Part shown: positions 45,579 to 55,192 of the stretch, piece by piece | How the letters are laid out: every line of letters begins with the position of its first letter | How positions within the stretch are numbered: the first letter of the stretch is position 1 | NCBI GenBank assembly: GCA_013530545.1 | Contig: SPVA01000043.1 | Span: 1 to 64,000 of the forward strand | Direction: 5' to 3' | DNA: 64,000 bases | Origin: Acinetobacter lwoffii | GTDB lineage: Bacteria; Pseudomonadota; Gammaproteobacteria; Pseudomonadales; Moraxellaceae | Notes under the pieces: model-generated | Database searches by the model: none | What the model was told of the DNA's origin: nothing | What the model saw: only the letters and a program-made list of their open reading frames with translations | Translations under genes and position numbers: made by a program

Positions 45579-45908
45579 ATGAAAAAATTTATAAGTGCAT
45601 TATGTGCAGCATTTCTATCTGCATGCAGCAGTACACCAGAATATAAAACAGTGGAAGTCACAGCAGATCAGTTTGGGGATAAATGGCCACTGACTGTGGA
45701 TAAAGGAACCTTACATTGCGAACAACCGACACGAATCATTTTTACTGCACCAGATGGCCAAAAATATGGCGTCAATGGATCGGCTCAAAATGACTATGTG
45801 ACAATCATGGAAATTACAAAAGATACTGAAATTATGGGACAAAAAATTAAAATGAATCCATCGGTATTAATAGAAGAAGGTATGCAACTCTGCGAAAACG
45901 CCAAATAA
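45579..45908 (+). CDS. Prophage lipoprotein of the DUF2511 type
   Basis: The 109-aa protein has a signal peptide with lipobox LSAC (Cys16). The mature part shows the DUF2511 pattern WPLTVDKGTLHCE ... FTAPDGQKYGVNGSAQ and two cysteines that could form a disulfide. It is flanked by terminators on both sides, as expected for an independently expressed prophage accessory gene. Role unknown; an effect on the lysogen's envelope is only a guess. Confidence 0.7.
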   Translation: MKKFISALCAAFLSACSSTPEYKTVEVTADQFGDKWPLTVDKGTLHCEQPTRIIFTAPDGQKYGVNGSAQNDYVTIMEITKDTEIMGQKIKMNPSVLIEEGMQLCENAK

Positions 45909-45949: not shown

Positions 45950-45979
45950 TTGACGCATAAAATGATTCACTGATACAGT
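45950..45979 (+). promoter_or_regulatory. Promoter of the C4 RNA unit with an embedded operator
   Basis: TTGACG (45950-45955) and TACAGT (45974-45979) are 18 bases apart. The spacer ends in TGATTCACTGAT (45963-45974), which recurs exactly at 47559-47570 in the repressor control region, so the prophage repressor probably silences this promoter. Confidence 0.65.
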
Positions 45980-46044
45980 TTTACCACTACAGCAAAATCT
46001 GTAGTCAGGCGTGGAAACCTGAAACCATCATAAGGCGCAAATAA

Positions 46045-46068
46045 AGTCGCGCAAGCGGCTGTTTTTTT
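46045..46068 (+). terminator. Leader terminator upstream of the C4 RNA
   Basis: AGTCGC and GCGGCT pair around a GCAA loop (one G-U pair) and are followed after one base by seven T residues. It lies between the first C4 target copy and the C4 RNA itself, so it may control read-through into the unit. Confidence 0.7.
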
Positions 46069-46071
46069 GTG

Positions 46072-46165
46072 TAAAATTCGGCTATGCCTTTTATGGCAGG
46101 CTGGACAGGGTGCCCTTCGGGGCAGCCGTTCCTTATGACGGTAAATTTCCACCCCTGTTCAGTCT
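46072..46165 (+). ncRNA. C4-type antisense RNA
   Basis: The sequence has the C4 hallmarks: a TGCCC-TTCG-GGGCA stem-loop, GGCAGCC followed by GTTCCTTATGACGG, and a flanking long-range helix (CTGGACAGGGT with ACCCCTGTTCAG). Two segments are complementary to the mRNA just downstream: TTCCTTATG (46129-46137) to CATAAGGAA over the ribosome-binding site (46213-46221), and AATTTCCAC (46144-46152) to GTGGAAATT (46179-46187). In P1/P7, C4 RNA blocks translation of the antirepressor in this way. Ends are estimated. Confidence 0.85.
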
Positions 46166-46226
46166 GTCACCAATCTTTGTGGAAATTGATTGGTGTCAGG
46201 TTTCAAACTTGACATAAGGAAAAACC

Positions 46227-46466
46227 ATGAATTATTCAAATCAATTGCTGACACTCGACGGCATTCAATCTTCAGCTCCTGATCTCCAGCAAACTCTAAA
46301 TACTGAACTTCTAAATAAACAGCAACGTCACGATCTTCTGGTTCGTGTGCTCAAAAGTACCGCTTATAAACCTAGTATTATCGACCTGCTAAAAAGCATC
46401 CTGATATCCAATAAAAAATGGCATATAACCAAAATAAAAGGACCTCGTGGTGTCACTTTTTTGTGA
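46227..46466 (+). CDS. 79-aa protein under C4 antisense control
   Basis: The ATG follows TAAGGA, which is the sequence covered by the C4 complement. The product is helical and basic at its C-terminus (ISNKKWHITKIKGPRGV) and matches no family I recognise. By position it stands where P1/P7 have the antirepressor or cell-division inhibitor genes, so an antirepressor-like or host-acting role is possible but unproven. Confidence 0.6.
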   Translation: MNYSNQLLTLDGIQSSAPDLQQTLNTELLNKQQRHDLLVRVLKSTAYKPSIIDLLKSILISNKKWHITKIKGPRGVTFL

Positions 46467-46551: not shown

Positions 46552-46596
46552 TACCGCAAGCGGAACAGGTTAAAAAATTCATTAGCGGGAGAGAAT

Positions 46597-46794
46597 ATGA
46601 ATACACCAACGAATGATGATATTCGGGAAGAAATTTTGTTGCATATGCTCGATTTAAAACATCGCTTAAATTTAATGAGTAAAGTTCAGGTGACAAATGG
46701 GGAACAGATTGAACATGAAGAATTGAATGCACTGTTTAGCTCATTCAGCAAAGATATGAATCAGATTATCGATTCGTTCCAAAGTATCGTTTAA
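46597..46794 (+). CDS. 65-aa mini-protein, tandem paralogue A
   Basis: The ATG follows GGGAGAG. The protein is acidic and helical. Its core LKHRLNLMSKVQVTNGEQIE, with LF and N-x-II-x-x-F downstream, aligns with the protein at 46940-47146. It has its own promoter and terminator. No function known. Confidence 0.65.
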   Translation: MNTPTNDDIREEILLHMLDLKHRLNLMSKVQVTNGEQIEHEELNALFSSFSKDMNQIIDSFQSIV

Positions 46795-46939: not shown

Positions 46940-47146
46940 ATGTCGAACAATACCGTAAACAACAATGATGACCAAAACGAAGAAACGCTAATTGAATTAA
47001 TTCACTTAAAAAACTGTCTAGGTTTGATGAGTAAAATGAAAGTCCAGGAAGGTGAACAGATTGACGCAGCAGAGATCAATTCACTATTCACCACAATGCA
47101 TGACCAAGTAAATAAAATAATTAAAAAATTTGAAATGTCGTTGTAA
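46940..47146 (+). CDS. 68-aa mini-protein, tandem paralogue B
   Basis: The ATG follows a very strong AAAGGAGG. The core LKNCLGLMSKMKVQEGEQID matches paralogue A position by position, as does the following E-x-N-x-LF segment and the N-K-II-K-x-F end. The two are single-unit genes in series, each closed by a terminator, probably from a tandem duplication with later divergence. Confidence 0.65.
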   Translation: MSNNTVNNNDDQNEETLIELIHLKNCLGLMSKMKVQEGEQIDAAEINSLFTTMHDQVNKIIKKFEMSL

Positions 47147-47500: not shown

Positions 47501-47597
47501 TTTTACCCACCAAAGTATTGAAACTTTCGATTTATCGTAATATTATTCAGTAATACAGTGATTCACTGATGCTCTATCAACATTTTAAGGACTTGCT
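47501..47597. promoter_or_regulatory. Divergent control region of the lysis-lysogeny switch
   Basis: Two related half-sites, ATTCAGTAAT (47545-47554) and ATTCACTGAT (47561-47570), lie 16 bp apart. TGATTCACTGAT (47559-47570) is identical to the operator in the C4 promoter. On the minus strand TTGATA (about 47575) could be the repressor -35. Confidence 0.6.
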
Positions 47598-47839: not shown

Positions 47840-48082
47840 ATGACAACACTTCAAGAACTTTGTATAAAGCGAAAGAATCAACTCCAAAATCGTAATGGTA
47901 CAGAAGCCTTAAGAAAACGTATAGACCATTTAAAAACTTTGTCTGGTGAAGAACGTCAACGCTTTGCTGAAAAATTAAAAGGCTATATCGAAGCCTTATT
48001 TGAACACCAAATCATTACATTCCAAGACGCAAAGGATTGGGAATGGATTGTTGAAAGCAAAAGGGACTTCACTAATGTCTGA
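47840..48082 (+). CDS. 80-aa early-operon protein of unknown function
   Basis: A helical, charged protein (LRKRIDHLKTLSGEERQRF core) with no recognised domain. Its stop overlaps the start of the primase gene by 8 bp, so translation of the two is coupled. Confidence 0.6.
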   Translation: MTTLQELCIKRKNQLQNRNGTEALRKRIDHLKTLSGEERQRFAEKLKGYIEALFEHQIITFQDAKDWEWIVESKRDFTNV

Positions 48083-50834
48083 AATTAAACATCGCATCAT
48101 TGCCCGTCTTGAACAAATGTTCAGTTTCAAGATACGTGGCGAATGGTTCCGTGAAGGTGTCTGCCCACAATGCGGAAAAAAAGAACTTTATACCCATGCA
48201 CACAATCCTCGTTTGGTGAAATGTGGTCGTTTGGTCAAATGTGGTTATGAAGAACACGTCAAAGATATCTGTGAAGACTTATTCAAAGACTGGTCTGAAT
48301 ACCATCCGCAAACCGATACAAATCCAAATGCTGCAGCAGATGCATTTTTATCAGAAGGTCGTGGTTTCGATCTTAAAAACTTAATTGGTAAATACACCCA
48401 GCAGTTCTATACAGATAAAGACAGTAAAGAATCATCTGCAACTGTTCGCTTTATGCTAGATGACAAAAACTATTGGGAACGTCTAATCGACAGACCAGAA
48501 CGTTTTGGCAATAAAAAAGCACGCTTTAACTATGGTTTCAAAAATTCTGGCCAAGCATGGTCAGTATATGAATTGGATGAACTTTGCCGTTTAGGGGAAA
48601 AAGGCCAAGCGATCTGGATCACTGAAGGAATCTTTGATGCCATTGCACTGAGTCAGTCAGGTGTCAAAGCCATGTCTTGCCTGTCATGTGTCAACTACCC
48701 TTCTCAAATGCTTAAAGCTATTGCTGATCGCTGCCATGAACTCAAGATTGACAAGCCACGTTTACGTTGGGCATTCGACAATGATTCGGCAGGTAAAGGT
48801 TACACAGTTAAATGGCATGAACGTTCACGTGCTGAAGGTTGGTCATCTACGGCTGCACAGCCACCGGCAAATGGTGGTAAAAAACTTGATTGGAATGATT
48901 TATTTCAGTGGGACAAACTTAACCCTGATCAGTTCCCAAAGTATAAACACTATGGTGAATTGCTCATTGCTGAAACGGCTGAAGAAGCAGGTCTTTTAAT
49001 TTACAACTTCTATGAAGGTCGTCGTCATACCTTCTATTACAACCACAAATTCCGTTTGTACTGGTGGGAACTCGACTATGACAAATTCAATAAAGCGGTT
49101 CAGCACCTGGAAGACCGCAACAATGAAGCAGCTGAAAATGGTGGTCAGATCCTGACTGATAAAGAGATCCGTGCCAGTGCATTAAAGAATTGTTCAGCAG
49201 CCAAAGAAATTTGCAACGCTCAGATTGAACCGTTGTACTTCCAACGGAATGAAATCACCGATGAATCTTGGTACTACTTCAAATTGCAAAGCCCATGGTC
49301 AGAAGCAAAAACCACCTTTACAGCTGATCAAATGTCATCACGTTCCAAGTTCAAACCACGTGTTATGTCGGTGATGTCCGGTGCAATGTGGACAGGTACC
49401 GATAATCACCTGGAAACATTCATCAAACGTGAAACTGAGCGTTTACGTGAAGTCAAAACTATTGACTACATTGGTTATAGCCGTGAGTACCAAACTTATA
49501 TCTTTGAAAAATATGCGGTGCATAAAGGCCAAATCATTGCCATCAATGAGCATGACTTTTTCAAAGTAAAACGTCAGGAAATTAAAACACTGGCAAGTTC
49601 ACCAGCGATCACATTGAACCCTAAAAAACAGTTTGATCCGTCATGGTGGAATGACTTCCATAAAGTCCGTGGTGCAAAAGGTATTGTGGCTTTGGCTTGG
49701 TGGATGGGTTCATATTTTGCTGAACAAATCCGTGCCATGCACAGCTCATACCCTTTCATGGAAATTGTCGGTGAAGCAGGTGCAGGTAAATCACGTTTAA
49801 TTGAAATGATGTGGAAACTTTCAGGCCGTAAAGACTATGAAGGCTTTGATGCAAACAAATCAACAAACGTGGCGGTGTACCGTAACTTTGCACAGATCGC
49901 AAACCTGCCAGTGGTCCTGATCGAAGGCGACCGTAATGACGTGAATGGTAATGCTGTTCAAAAGTCCAAATTCAGTTGGGATGAATTGAAAGATGCCTTC
50001 AATGGTCGTGCCATTCGTTCCAAAGGTTTAAAGACTGCAGGTAATGAAACCTATGAACCACCGTTTCGTGGTGCCATCCTGATTTCACAGAACACGGCAA
50101 TTCAGGCTTCAGAAGCAATTTTGACTCGTACTTTGCACTTGTACTTTGACCGCAAAGGACAGTCACTGGAAACAAAACGCATTGTCGATGAACTGGATCG
50201 CATGGAACTTGAAGATGCCTGCACATTCATGACCCATTGTCTGCGTAATGAAGACAAGATCTTGGAGACATACGCATCAAAGTTACAGTCAATTGAAGAT
50301 CACTATCATGAAATTGGTATTACCCATACACGTATTGCCTTATGTCATGCACAAGTAGCTGCACTGATCGAAGCAATGACCAAACACGTTTTGCCAATCG
50401 ACTTGGAAGACATGCTTGAAGCACAAGAAATGCTTGAACAAATGGCACGTGAACGTGTTGAACAGTTGAATGGTGATCATCCTGACGTGGAAAAATTCTG
50501 GGATGTTTACGAATATCTTCAAGGCAATCGTTCACCAGAATGGGGTTTAAATCATCACCCTGCCGATGCTCAAACGGTCGCAATCAACTTAAACGAAATT
50601 TACAAAGTGGCTGCACGCAACTATCAGCAGCTGCCTGAAATCAATGAAATGAAGAAATTACTTCGCACCTCACGCAAGTACAAATTCATTGAAAGTAATA
50701 AACAGGTGTACTCAGACCGCTTCCCTGCCGATGACGTGGCAGCAGTAACCAAAAATCGTGAAGTACCAGGTAAAGCAAGCCGAAATGTGAAGTGCTGGAT
50801 CTTCACCAATCCAAATTTAGGGGCAAAGAAATAA
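48075..50834 (+). CDS. TOPRIM primase-helicase replication protein
   Basis: The 919-aa protein has an N-terminal zinc ribbon (CPQCGKKELYTHAH, later CG and CGY), a TOPRIM domain (ITEGIFDAIALSQSG, then FDNDSAGKGY about residues 180-245) and a C-terminal P-loop motor with Walker A GEAGAGKSRL, Walker B VVLIEGDRND and a sensor segment ISQNTAIQASEAILTRT. It likely primes and unwinds phage DNA. This replaces P2 gpA, the rolling-circle nickase, and implies a different replication mode. The ATG at 48075 is chosen over the longer frame because it overlaps the previous stop. Confidence 0.87.
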   Translation: MSEIKHRIIARLEQMFSFKIRGEWFREGVCPQCGKKELYTHAHNPRLVKCGRLVKCGYEEHVKDICEDLFKDWSEYHPQTDTNPNAAADAFLSEGRGFDLKNLIGKYTQQFYTDKDSKESSATVRFMLDDKNYWERLIDRPERFGNKKARFNYGFKNSGQAWSVYELDELCRLGEKGQAIWITEGIFDAIALSQSGVKAMSCLSCVNYPSQMLKAIADRCHELKIDKPRLRWAFDNDSAGKGYTVKWHERSRAEGWSSTAAQPPANGGKKLDWNDLFQWDKLNPDQFPKYKHYGELLIAETAEEAGLLIYNFYEGRRHTFYYNHKFRLYWWELDYDKFNKAVQHLEDRNNEAAENGGQILTDKEIRASALKNCSAAKEICNAQIEPLYFQRNEITDESWYYFKLQSPWSEAKTTFTADQMSSRSKFKPRVMSVMSGAMWTGTDNHLETFIKRETERLREVKTIDYIGYSREYQTYIFEKYAVHKGQIIAINEHDFFKVKRQEIKTLASSPAITLNPKKQFDPSWWNDFHKVRGAKGIVALAWWMGSYFAEQIRAMHSSYPFMEIVGEAGAGKSRLIEMMWKLSGRKDYEGFDANKSTNVAVYRNFAQIANLPVVLIEGDRNDVNGNAVQKSKFSWDELKDAFNGRAIRSKGLKTAGNETYEPPFRGAILISQNTAIQASEAILTRTLHLYFDRKGQSLETKRIVDELDRMELEDACTFMTHCLRNEDKILETYASKLQSIEDHYHEIGITHTRIALCHAQVAALIEAMTKHVLPIDLEDMLEAQEMLEQMARERVEQLNGDHPDVEKFWDVYEYLQGNRSPEWGLNHHPADAQTVAINLNEIYKVAARNYQQLPEINEMKKLLRTSRKYKFIESNKQVYSDRFPADDVAAVTKNREVPGKASRNVKCWIFTNPNLGAKK

Positions 50835-52886: not shown

Positions 52887-52900
52887 ATGGGGCTTTTTTT
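52874..52900. terminator. Bidirectional terminator between early operon and int
   Basis: AAAGCCCC and GGGGCTTT form a stem with a 7-base loop and a T run on the plus strand. It closes two convergent genes. Confidence 0.88.
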
Positions 52901-54044
52901 ATACCAATTTTTTGGCCACTTTCATGGCTTCCACAAAATCCAATCGATCACGACGGCTTTTCAAATTCACATAACGTCTTAGACTTTCCCAGGACTCATG
53001 CAAACTGATCTGCTGCAGCTGGGGAATGGTCAAACCATCTTCAGCCAATCGGGTAATTCCTTCATGACGCAAATCATGAAAACGTAAATCTTCAATGCCG
53101 GTCATCTTGATCGCTTCACGCCAACGTGATGCAAATGATTTTGCATTCAATGGCAACAACACCGACGGATCTGCAGAATCTAAACGAAGCATTTGATCAC
53201 GGACATCAGGCTTCATTAATTCTTTAATGACACGTTCAGCCTGTTCAGTCACCTTAAAAATTTTATGATTGCCGGCACTGCCATTCGGATTTTTTAAATC
53301 AAAAACTTTCCATTCATTATGGTGCTGATCAAATTGATTCAAAAACAGTCGTGTCAATTCATCTTCACGCCTGCAGGTATAAATGGCCAACCACATAATC
53401 AGATGCAAAGGCATGGATGTTTTACTGGTTTTCCAACGCCTATAAAAATAATTAGTCAGTAATTGCAGCTCATTTGATGTCGGCAATCGGTCACGTTTCT
53501 TGGATTTCGTGATCACACGTGCATTGCGTAGACCTTTCATCGCCTGTTCTAGCTCAAAGATGTTCACTTTTTCACCCCAAACGAGATCCGCATGCGTCAA
53601 AACCACCTTTAAATATTGCAAATCTTGCAAGGCAGTACTTGATTCAATCGGATCTGCACCAATCTCTGGGTACCCTGTTCGCCTTAAATATGTATGATCA
53701 GTAAAATCTTTCCTGGTTAAATCTGAAATTTTGACCTTTCCGATTGGCCAATGGGTTAAAAAGCGGATGCCCATGCGTTTGGATCTTCCAAAACCTTCAA
53801 CTTCTTGTAAATATTTCTCTAAAGCAGCAGCTAAGGTTATGCCCTTTGAAATATTTGCAGAAATCATCAGTTCCGGATTCAATTCAAGTTCATATTCGCG
53901 CTTTTTGATCCATGCTTCAGCCAATGACCTTTTACTAAATGTCTTAGACTCTGTAAAATTCGGCAGCCCTTGTCGCTTCACGCGCACCTGCGCCCTGTAT
54001 TTTTTCACACCAGTGGACAGAACTCTTTCTGTAACTGTACCCAT
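52899..54044 (-). CDS. int: Tyrosine-type integrase targeting dusA
   Basis: The 381-aa recombinase has an N-terminal arm-binding region (KKYRAQVRVKRQGLPNF), a core-binding domain and a C-terminal catalytic domain with Arg in CRREDELTRL, His-x-x-Arg in FHDLRHEGITRLAEDG, a second His in SLHESWESL, and the Tyr nucleophile in RRYVNL. The start at 54044 follows AGGGTG; the longer frame reads through the arm repeats and is unlikely. It should catalyse integration into dusA and, with a directionality factor, excision. Confidence 0.93.
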   Translation of the reverse strand: MGTVTERVLSTGVKKYRAQVRVKRQGLPNFTESKTFSKRSLAEAWIKKREYELELNPELMISANISKGITLAAALEKYLQEVEGFGRSKRMGIRFLTHWPIGKVKISDLTRKDFTDHTYLRRTGYPEIGADPIESSTALQDLQYLKVVLTHADLVWGEKVNIFELEQAMKGLRNARVITKSKKRDRLPTSNELQLLTNYFYRRWKTSKTSMPLHLIMWLAIYTCRREDELTRLFLNQFDQHHNEWKVFDLKNPNGSAGNHKIFKVTEQAERVIKELMKPDVRDQMLRLDSADPSVLLPLNAKSFASRWREAIKMTGIEDLRFHDLRHEGITRLAEDGLTIPQLQQISLHESWESLRRYVNLKSRRDRLDFVEAMKVAKKLV

Positions 54045-54073
54045 AAATTTGCACCCTGACCCAAAACCCATTT

Positions 54074-54093
54074 CACGGTGCAAATACGGTGCA
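54074..54093 (+). repeat. Right arm-type repeat of the prophage
   Basis: An exact copy, in the same orientation, of the 20 bases at 19984-20003. Here it is followed by CCG, so the second heptamer is part of a perfect 10-bp palindrome CGGTGCACCG. It lies just upstream of int, so binding could also repress int. Confidence 0.75.
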
Positions 54094-54118
54094 CCGAAAT
54101 ACTGAAATATGGGGAAAT

Positions 54119-55192
54119 ATGAGTAAAAATGCGAGTAAATGCAATATGCAAAATGTAGATAAAGCCCTGAAAAATCCACAACTTATTGATAACTCAATAA
54201 AACCTCGTATTTCCGTGGCACCGATGATGGATTGGACCACCAAAGACTATCGTTTCTTTGCACGTCTGTTTAACCCGAATGTGATTATGTACACCGAAAT
54301 GGTCACCACGGGTGCGATCATTTACGGTGATGCCAAACGTCATTTGGACTTTAATACGGAAGAACAGCCAATTGTGCTGCAACTCGGCGGCTCGAATCCA
54401 AAAGATCTGGCAATCTGTACCAAGATGGCGCAGGACTGGGGCTATAACGAAGTCAATTTAAATGTAGGTTGCCCAAGTGACCGGGTACAGAATAATAAAA
54501 TTGGTGCCTGTCTGATGGCGGAACCTGATCTAGTCGCAGAATGTATTGCTGAAATGCGTCATGCGGTGGATATTCCAGTGACCGTAAAACACCGGATCGG
54601 AATTGATGATATGCACTCTTATGAAGAGATGATGCATTTTGTCGATACCGTGGCCAAAACCGGCTGCAATAACTTTATCGTGCATGCGCGGATTGCCTTG
54701 TTAAAAGGCCTATCACCTAAAGAAAACCGCGACGTGCCACCCCTACGTTATGAAGATGTCTACCGTTTAAAACAGGATCGCCCTGATCTGCTGATCGAGA
54801 TCAACGGCGGAATTAAAACCTATGCTGAAACCTTGGAACATCTCAAACATGTGGATGGCGTGATGATTGGCCGCGAAGCCTATCATAATCCTTACTTACT
54901 GGCTGAGCTGGGCCAGTTATGGAATCTGGATGCACCAGACCGTTTTGAGATTATGCAAAAAATGATGCCGTACATAGCCCAGCGTATGGCAGAAGGTGCA
55001 CCGTTGTCGATTATTACCCGTCATATTTTGGGACTATTCCAGAACTTGCCGGGTGCACGCAAATGGCGTCAGGCGCTAAGCGGTGGGAATGCCAAAACCT
55101 TGAAAGATGTAGAAACTGCACTCTTTAATATTCAGGAAGCCATGCAGCGTACCGAAGATTATGTTCGCGAACATCAACAGGTTGAATCTTAA
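54119..55192 (+). CDS. dusA: tRNA-dihydrouridine synthase A with prophage-supplied N-terminus
   Basis: DusA is an FMN enzyme that reduces U20/U20a of tRNAs. The body is intact: RISVAPMMDWTTKDYRFF, TEMVTTGAI, LQLGGSNPKDLA, the catalytic-cysteine motif NLNVGCPSDRVQ and VHARIALLKG. The first 28 residues before RISVAPMMD come from prophage DNA and differ from the stranded host N-terminus at 19861. The ATG follows GGGG at a suitable distance. Expression must now come from a promoter within the 75-bp int-dusA gap or inside the prophage. Confidence 0.95.
   Translation: MSKNASKCNMQNVDKALKNPQLIDNSIKPRISVAPMMDWTTKDYRFFARLFNPNVIMYTEMVTTGAIIYGDAKRHLDFNTEEQPIVLQLGGSNPKDLAICTKMAQDWGYNEVNLNVGCPSDRVQNNKIGACLMAEPDLVAECIAEMRHAVDIPVTVKHRIGIDDMHSYEEMMHFVDTVAKTGCNNFIVHARIALLKGLSPKENRDVPPLRYEDVYRLKQDRPDLLIEINGGIKTYAETLEHLKHVDGVMIGREAYHNPYLLAELGQLWNLDAPDRFEIMQKMMPYIAQRMAEGAPLSIITRHILGLFQNLPGARKWRQALSGGNAKTLKDVETALFNIQEAMQRTEDYVREHQQVES
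54221..54231 (+). other. attR core
   Basis: Second copy of CCGATGATGGA, within dusA codons for PMMD. The distance from the attL copy sets the prophage length at about 34.3 kb. Confidence 0.85.

Follow-up and report, generated by a model that had tools for sequence, protein, structure and literature searches.

What would a C4-type antisense RNA control in a P2-like prophage, where it lies between two copies of its own target and in front of a gene for a protein that cannot be assigned? The locus that raises this question lies in a 64,000-nt stretch of DNA (hereafter the window), and a reading of that sequence alone had likened it to the immunity locus of P1 and P7. Judged by comparison with its relatives, it is a C4/isrK switch of a known kind with an orphan gene in the antirepressor slot, the function of which we infer. 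We propose, with a probability of about 0.7, that the locus acts as a secondary immunity switch of the prophage, built like immI of P1 and P7, and that the protein of 79 aa stands in the place of a Rha-type antirepressor. The call of a C4 RNA with duplicated targets is confirmed, with strong comparative evidence, and the mechanism of the switch is supported by homology.

The locus sits in a P2-like prophage of an Acinetobacter-type genome (Table 1). Upstream are genes for a tail sheath, a protein of the PHROG "head closure" annotation, which we take to be the tube protein by P2 order, a tape measure and two further tail proteins; downstream follow small ORFs, a helix-turn-helix gene on the opposite strand, a Toprim primase, a single-strand binding protein and an integrase. 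The helix-turn-helix (XRE) protein also matches Pfam HTH_31 and HTH_3 at E about 1e-3, below the cut-off. Directly beside the C4 locus, at 45579-45908, the prophage carries a 109-aa lipoprotein-like protein that matches Pfam DUF2511 (E 1.1e-6) and, weakly, a PHROG of Cor superinfection exclusion (E 0.0065). Further downstream (window 52899-55192), the integrase gene directly adjoins a gene at 54089-55192 whose translation reads as a tRNA-dihydrouridine synthase, a likely site of integration.

Table 1. Features of the locus and its surroundings, in window coordinates.
Feature	Position	Strand	Remarks
Candidate sigma70-type promoter	45950..45979	+	TTGACG at 45950, TACAGT at 45974, spacing 18; read from sequence
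Candidate repressor operator TGATTCACTGAT	45963..45974	+	overlaps candidate promoter
isrK-like leader RNA	45986..46065	+	RF01394; bears first target, terminator at its end
a1, upstream target half	46011..46017	+	GTGGAAA, complementary to C4 a'; in hairpin loop
b1, upstream target half	46029..46035	+	CATAAGG, complementary to C4 b'; 8 nt with one more base
Intrinsic-terminator-like hairpin and seven T	46045..46068	+	between b1 and C4
C4 antisense RNA	46089..46174	+	RF01695; 17-bp P1 stem, P2 with UUCG loop, P3 with b' loop
b' (C4 P3 loop)	46129..46137	+	
a' of C4	46144..46152	+	
a2, downstream target half	46179..46187	+	inside a hairpin whose 5' arm is the C4 3' end
b2, downstream target half	46213..46221	+	over ribosome-binding site of 79-aa ORF
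79-aa ORF, presumed C4 target	46227..46466	+	ATG 56 nt past C4 structure
345-nt segment	46238..46582	+	counterpart in L280: 917 nt carrying a rha-type gene
65-aa ORF	46597..46794	+	ATG 46597 chosen; longer frame from TTG also listed
68-aa ORF	46940..47146	+	
Small helix-turn-helix (XRE) protein, probable phage repressor	47162..47500	-	PHROG transcriptional regulators, best E 7.4e-5
Second copy of candidate operator TGATTCACTGAT	47559..47570	+	upstream of XRE gene
Toprim primase, prophage replication region	48069..50834	+	PHROG 1139 DNA primase, 1048 bits

The RNA that had been called C4-type from the letters alone was recovered by the Rfam covariance model. When the whole 64 kb was scanned, C4 (RF01695) reached 64.8 bits (cut-off 45) and isrK (RF01394), a family whose Rfam description mentions Hfq binding, reached 56.8 bits (cut-off 50); both matches cover the full model (1-87 and 1-77, respectively), and they are the only two in the window at gathering scores. 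The predicted fold of the C4 RNA has an energy of -43.4 kcal/mol. The family c4-a1b1 (RF03163), listed in the accessible text of Weinberg et al. 2010 (PMC2864571), describes an upstream C4 target such as the window has, yet the window's match to it (45973-46025, from a scan of 601 bases at a lax threshold) reaches 39.2 bits and stays below the gathering score of 46.7. A second C4 is present elsewhere in the same genome (G000:C20:13798-13885; loci L001 and L003); a tRNA gene lies about 350 nt away, and this C4 too is flanked by targets of its own and has an ORF of 21 aa. Action of this second RNA on the window locus is not supported, and its loops differ.

The words, positions and complementarity given by the sequence-only reading all hold. 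The downstream half-sites GTGGAAATT (a2) and CATAAGGAA (b2) are the reverse complements, over 9 nt each, of AATTTCCAC (a') and TTCCTTATG (b'), and C4 lies between two target copies, the downstream one over the ribosome-binding site. Its remark that each copy follows a GTCAGG needs correction: the GTCAGG at 46004 does precede the upstream copy, but the one at 46195 falls between the halves of the downstream copy, and only the CATAAGG half has the motif before it in both. The complementarity between C4 and its targets is not due to chance. The window's flanks were shuffled 5,000 times with dinucleotide composition kept: the two upstream complements arose together once and the two downstream complements never; the upstream b match alone arose 22 times. 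The ordered pair GTGGAAA...CATAAGG is found nowhere in the window's genome except in the two targets and, read on the opposite strand, within C4. A generic duplex-energy test did not discriminate, with scores as good in 387 of 2000 random segments upstream and in 1456 of 2000 downstream; we think that the long P1 stem of C4 dominates this score.

If these sites pair, related cassettes should keep the pairing while the address itself changes, and they do. A cassette query of 261 bases was searched against 175 genomes of the genus, 68 of which had matches, many of them partial-length, and further copies were taken from viral contigs, one phage record and plasmids. A parser of the C4 fold was applied to 39 isrK-type loci, a set that omits L036 (the window again) and L065 (where the parser found no C4). 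Identical (b', a') addresses were counted once, which leaves 29. Most of these loci came from searches for DNA similar to that of the window and share ancestry among themselves; they are not independent events. Among the 29, the b' loop takes 28 forms and a' takes 12. An exact complement of at least 7 nt to the locus's own b' is present upstream in 29/29 and downstream in 26/29 (shorter than 7 nt in L044, L066 and L068), as against 75/810 and 51/810 when flanks were swapped between loci. The a' complement is found on both sides in all 29, as against 111/740 and 135/740 in swapped flanks, where matches are frequent because few a' cores exist. When flanks were permuted among the 28 loci with distinct b', the observed sum was reached in none of 20,000 permutations on either side. 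The loop and both targets therefore change together, as base pairing under selection would predict, and this compensatory change upholds the interpretation of the flanking words as duplicated targets.

The spacing of the cassette is constrained as well. In the 38 of the 39 isrK-type loci with a called start (the script called no ORF in L068), a2 lies 5-10 nt, b2 35-43 nt and the start codon 50-59 nt past C4, and this geometry is kept although the downstream proteins are of several unrelated kinds. A hairpin followed by seven or eight T separates b1 from C4 in all 29 distinct isrK-type cassettes, as against 6/52 addresses of the dispersed type described below. The idea that this hairpin adds an attenuation step gains from its conservation and from its being part of the Rfam isrK match. 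Cassettes with the window's own address were also sought in viral contigs: a strict pattern gave no match, and a loose one gave at least 120 stretches; of 120 parsed, 4 had anything C4-like, and none was judged to be C4 from its loops.

The association of isrK with C4 extends beyond the genus. Matches to isrK were found in 25 of 369 gammaproteobacterial genomes, the window's own included; 43 matches were listed and 30 taken as loci (L245-L274), of which, the window's omitted, 29 were scanned for C4. In 24/29 a C4 above threshold lies 7-55 nt downstream on the same strand. The loci with no downstream C4 are L260, L271, L267, L268 and L269, three of which are the weakest isrK matches; at L265 there are two C4 matches. 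Among the matches listed in the open-licence literature, the terms "c4 antisense" and "isrk" occur together in PMC12189769 only, where a table sets C4 beside isrK in Xylella with no comment in the accessible text.

A case that may belong here is Gifsy-1 of Salmonella. According to the accessible parts of PMC4825925, IsrK supplied in trans raised translation of anrP 139-fold, and IsrK is said to bind "orf45", a segment with a conserved nucleotide sequence and a variable amino-acid sequence, from which the short RNA STnc1160 also comes. Like the window, Gifsy-1 has an isrK leader with a terminator; read-through there leads into an anti-repressor operon, and a short RNA and a long mRNA arise from one promoter (PMC4825925, same parts), a layout much like the one that we propose for the window. 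The target protein differs between the two systems, and the available text treats the segment past IsrK as an ORF of 45 aa and holds no occurrence of the phrase "c4 antisense" (PMC4825925). We infer that Gifsy-1 orf45 is a C4 RNA and IsrK its decoy.

C4 copies also occur in the genus apart from such cassettes. Of 149 genomes, 127 have C4, and one holds as many as 26 copies. Those of the dispersed type are similar to the Group 1 C4-like sRNAs described in A. baumannii AB5075, which the accessible text of PMC5320573 presents as strongly expressed and apparently processed. The Group 1 sRNAs share with the window the presence of C4 structures in Acinetobacter, and differ from it as dispersed chromosomal copies in which, to go by the dispersed-type addresses here, the terminator is mostly absent. 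The dispersed-type set comprises 78 loci with 52 distinct addresses, one of which, L105, is in fact an isrK-type locus, a copy of L051. A complement to b' is kept upstream in 35 of the 52 and downstream in 19, in the latter case mostly with a small ORF behind it, for which 30 aa is a frequent length. Fifteen distinct ORFs of this 30-aa kind show weak signs of constraint on the encoded peptide, with a pN/pS of 0.67 in their own frame as against 0.88 and 0.94 in the two others, and five 64-aa ORFs of isrK-type loci have a pN/pS of 0.48.

The genome with 26 C4 matches (G082, contig C1; L013 and L074-L098) has some of them in pairs about 300-400 bp apart and three head to tail at 255601-255856, the latter with no clear flanking b targets. 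One-sided dispersed loci (L074, L079-L082, L084-L087 and similar ones) match b' upstream and not at the downstream target position; in these a conserved GGAGTTGGC precedes a short ORF, also conserved, of about 18 aa, which reads LHIHYFLAAFAKSYNDTT or a variant of it and in most cases begins with TTG. Plasmids carry the cassette too. In Acinetobacter plasmids (L071:2502-2740 and L275-L278), isrK, C4 and target precede a hydrophobic peptide of 22 aa, seen in four sequences that end in ...LLLALTGY or ...LLLALTEY, and in L275-L278 an HNH-type gene follows. At least 80% of the queried cassette is present in 45 plasmid records. Two addresses were seen among the plasmid cassettes, the first matched in cis by the complement test and the second by eye. 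Together with its 22-aa peptide, the plasmid cassette looks like a type I toxin-antitoxin unit. Plasmids pM131-4 and pSGAir0122 (L072 and L073) have the same type of cassette before a protein of about 115 aa, similar in appearance to the proteins at the genome loci L052, L058 and L059.

The region upstream of the isrK-like RNA offers a candidate link to the prophage repressor. A TTGAC-type box like that of the candidate promoter is visible by eye in the upstream sequences of most of the 29 distinct cassettes. The 12-mer TGATTCACTGAT occurs only twice in the window, once in this candidate promoter and once upstream of the XRE gene, and a word of that length was shared by none of 278 control segments. 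Among 15 loci with a matching repressor, a word is shared with the repressor region at 5% or better in eight, and in six of those eight (the window, L279, L280, L284, L285 and L287) no control was as good; the shared words are four different ones in four groups (pairs) of loci. No such shared operator word was found in the other 7/15. The word in the presumed C4 promoter is a candidate operator, probably of the phage repressor.

The genes behind the switch were compared in 20 longer stretches fetched around relatives. The window's primase has a homologue in 17/20, and its XRE protein has one in 14/20, encoded on the strand opposite to C4. An ORF of 186-307 aa follows soon past C4 on the same strand in 18/20, all but L286 and L298, and a Pfam scan found the Phage_pRha domain in 10 of these 18 operon proteins, including that of L280. 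The Rha protein of L280 also matches PHROG antirepressor families over a 110-aa part. The eight without a Rha domain comprise five DnaD-like helicase loaders or replication initiators (L281, L287, L294, L295 and L297) and three proteins of phrog_25537 (L290, L292 and L296); the C4 operon is therefore not always an antirepressor operon. Slightly more than half of the tested relatives would thus have an antirepressor-type gene under the switch, and others would have replication genes there; given the replication initiators in five of the C4 operons, C4 may also hold back replication. In the window's own operon, neither Pfam nor PHROGs recognised an antirepressor domain.

L280 offers the closest comparison, as no other relative is so similar to the window across the region: 4.3 kb align at 91% DNA identity, the repressor is 95% and the primase 96% identical (98% in L284), and an ORF of the same size lies at the position of the 65-aa ORF. 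C4 of L280 has rha as its direct target, and no small ORF comes between them. The alignment of the two DNAs stops at 46237 (83% identity up to there) and restarts at 46583 (91% identity); the intervening 345 nt, most of the 79-aa ORF included, therefore replace 917 nt with rha. The 79-aa ORF thus occupies the slot of the antirepressor gene of L280. The 20 related loci, read in six frames, yield 2543 open stretches of 30 aa or more, rha among them; none was matched by the 79-aa protein in a phmmer search, so the ORF is not a recognisable remnant of rha.

The protein itself bears out the earlier statement that it cannot be assigned, as it has no relative in any collection searched. In the 149 genomes of the genus it matched only itself, and no homologue was found among viral contigs, GTDB contigs, phages and plasmids; nothing in Pfam or PHROGs exceeded threshold. 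A Pfam OSCP match (E 0.057) fell below that family's cut-off and was dismissed. The predicted structure is poor (mean pLDDT 54.8), too low for a fold search. Codon usage gives its frame a log-odds of +4.5, as against -17.5 to -55.8 in the other five frames, and none of 1000 nucleotide shuffles did as well; per codon the value is 0.057, as against 0.088 to 0.162 in the five neighbours tested. We read the ORF as a putative functional replacement, which would encode an antirepressor or a growth inhibitor.

In immI of P1 and P7, a pair of target copies flanks C4. The resemblance that had been proposed for the window stands: two target copies flank its C4, a candidate operator lies in the C4 promoter, and 10/18 relatives have a Rha-type gene. 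As in P1/P7, where the b' loop covers the ribosome-binding site (accessible text of PMC5320573), the window's b' matches that site, and relatives with a small ORF and an antirepressor gene recall c4, icd and ant. The window differs in being a P2-like prophage in an Acinetobacter-type genome, in the isrK-type terminator, a conserved element, that separates C4 from the first target, and in the orphan 79-aa ORF, with no recognised antirepressor, that fills the antirepressor slot. In P1, C1 represses the c4-icd-ant operon and full repression needs C4 too (PMC8198154, in the parts available); the same double lock is therefore plausible at the window locus.

We hypothesize that a single promoter, probably repressed by the prophage's XRE repressor, drives the locus. 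Most transcripts would stop at the terminator and yield a short isrK-like RNA, while those that read through would carry C4 and the mRNA of the 79-aa ORF. C4 would be released by RNase P, a step described for the longer P1/P7 transcript and deduced from read coverage for A. baumannii Group 1 (PMC5320573, accessible part). Its loops a' and b' would pair with a2 and b2 and mask the ribosome-binding site of the 79-aa ORF, so that little of the protein would be made in the lysogen. The isrK-like RNA, with its second target copy (a1 and b1), would serve as a decoy that absorbs C4 when the promoter is fully active, which would release the ORF. Its product, standing where relatives have a Rha-type antirepressor, would then probably help to end lysogeny.

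Some of the same observations could be read as control by transcription termination. Satellite P4 controls its replication genes in such a way, and here the RNA would pair with a1 and b1 of its own nascent leader and stop transcription before the ORF, with no need to block ribosomes. The terminator-like hairpin between the first target and C4 in every isrK-type cassette, the greater constancy of the upstream complement, the several dispersed Acinetobacter loci that keep the upstream complement only, the replication initiator in the operons of 5/18 relatives and an operon that leads to primase in 17/20 would all fit. The position of b2 speaks against it, since b2 overlies the ribosome-binding site and its spacing to the start codon hardly varies even where the proteins that follow are unrelated, as does that of the terminator, which precedes C4 and would act before C4 exists on the same transcript; we consider this reading unlikely. 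More improbable again is that the locus has degenerated, with the antirepressor lost, the 79-aa ORF a chance frame in the replacement DNA and the switch a relic with no useful target. The absence of homologues and families, the poor structure model and the codon score below that of all five neighbours agree with such a relic, but both target copies still match the C4 loops over 7-9 nt, the ATG stands at the family position, and codon usage is positive in the 79-aa frame only, a score that no shuffle equalled.

What the protein does could also differ from what we propose while the switch remains the same. It might be a host inhibitor like Icd or Kil, kept off by C4 in the lysogen, and not an antirepressor. 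Eight relatives have a small first ORF (56-66 aa) before rha, as icd stands before ant in P1 (PMC8198154, available parts), which favours this reading; the phmmer search, which took in the small ORFs of the related loci, found nothing like the 79-aa protein among them, and in L280 the slot is filled by rha itself with no small ORF in front. On balance we hold a host inhibitor to be a minority possibility. For the reading that we prefer, a secondary immunity switch with the 79-aa protein in the antirepressor's place, the sequences show the two RNA families, the targets that change with the loop, the constant terminator, the shared operator word and the replacement of rha, while transcription, RNase P processing, translational repression, the decoy role and the protein's function are what we propose.

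What is new is the setting and not the kind, which was already known: P2-like Acinetobacter prophages carry an isrK-type C4 switch, its address highly variable, and an orphan gene fills the antirepressor slot. More tentatively, and at somewhat less than even odds, an address-coded switch of isrK, terminator, C4 and target may be common to Acinetobacter prophages and plasmids, in which b' and both targets vary together and set immunity groups while the genes behind are diverse: Rha antirepressors, small membrane-type proteins, replication initiators further on, the 22-aa plasmid peptide and the orphan of 79 aa, which would be a new small antirepressor. On that broader reading isrK RNAs would generally be C4 decoys, and this, if true, would explain Gifsy-1 IsrK simply. 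The link between the two RNA families, which adjoin each other at 24/29 isrK loci, offers a testable reason why IsrK switches on an antirepressor in Salmonella. The sequence of the varying b' loop allows a prediction of which prophages ought to have immunity in common, and the rha slot with its 79-aa protein is where one could look for a new small antirepressor.
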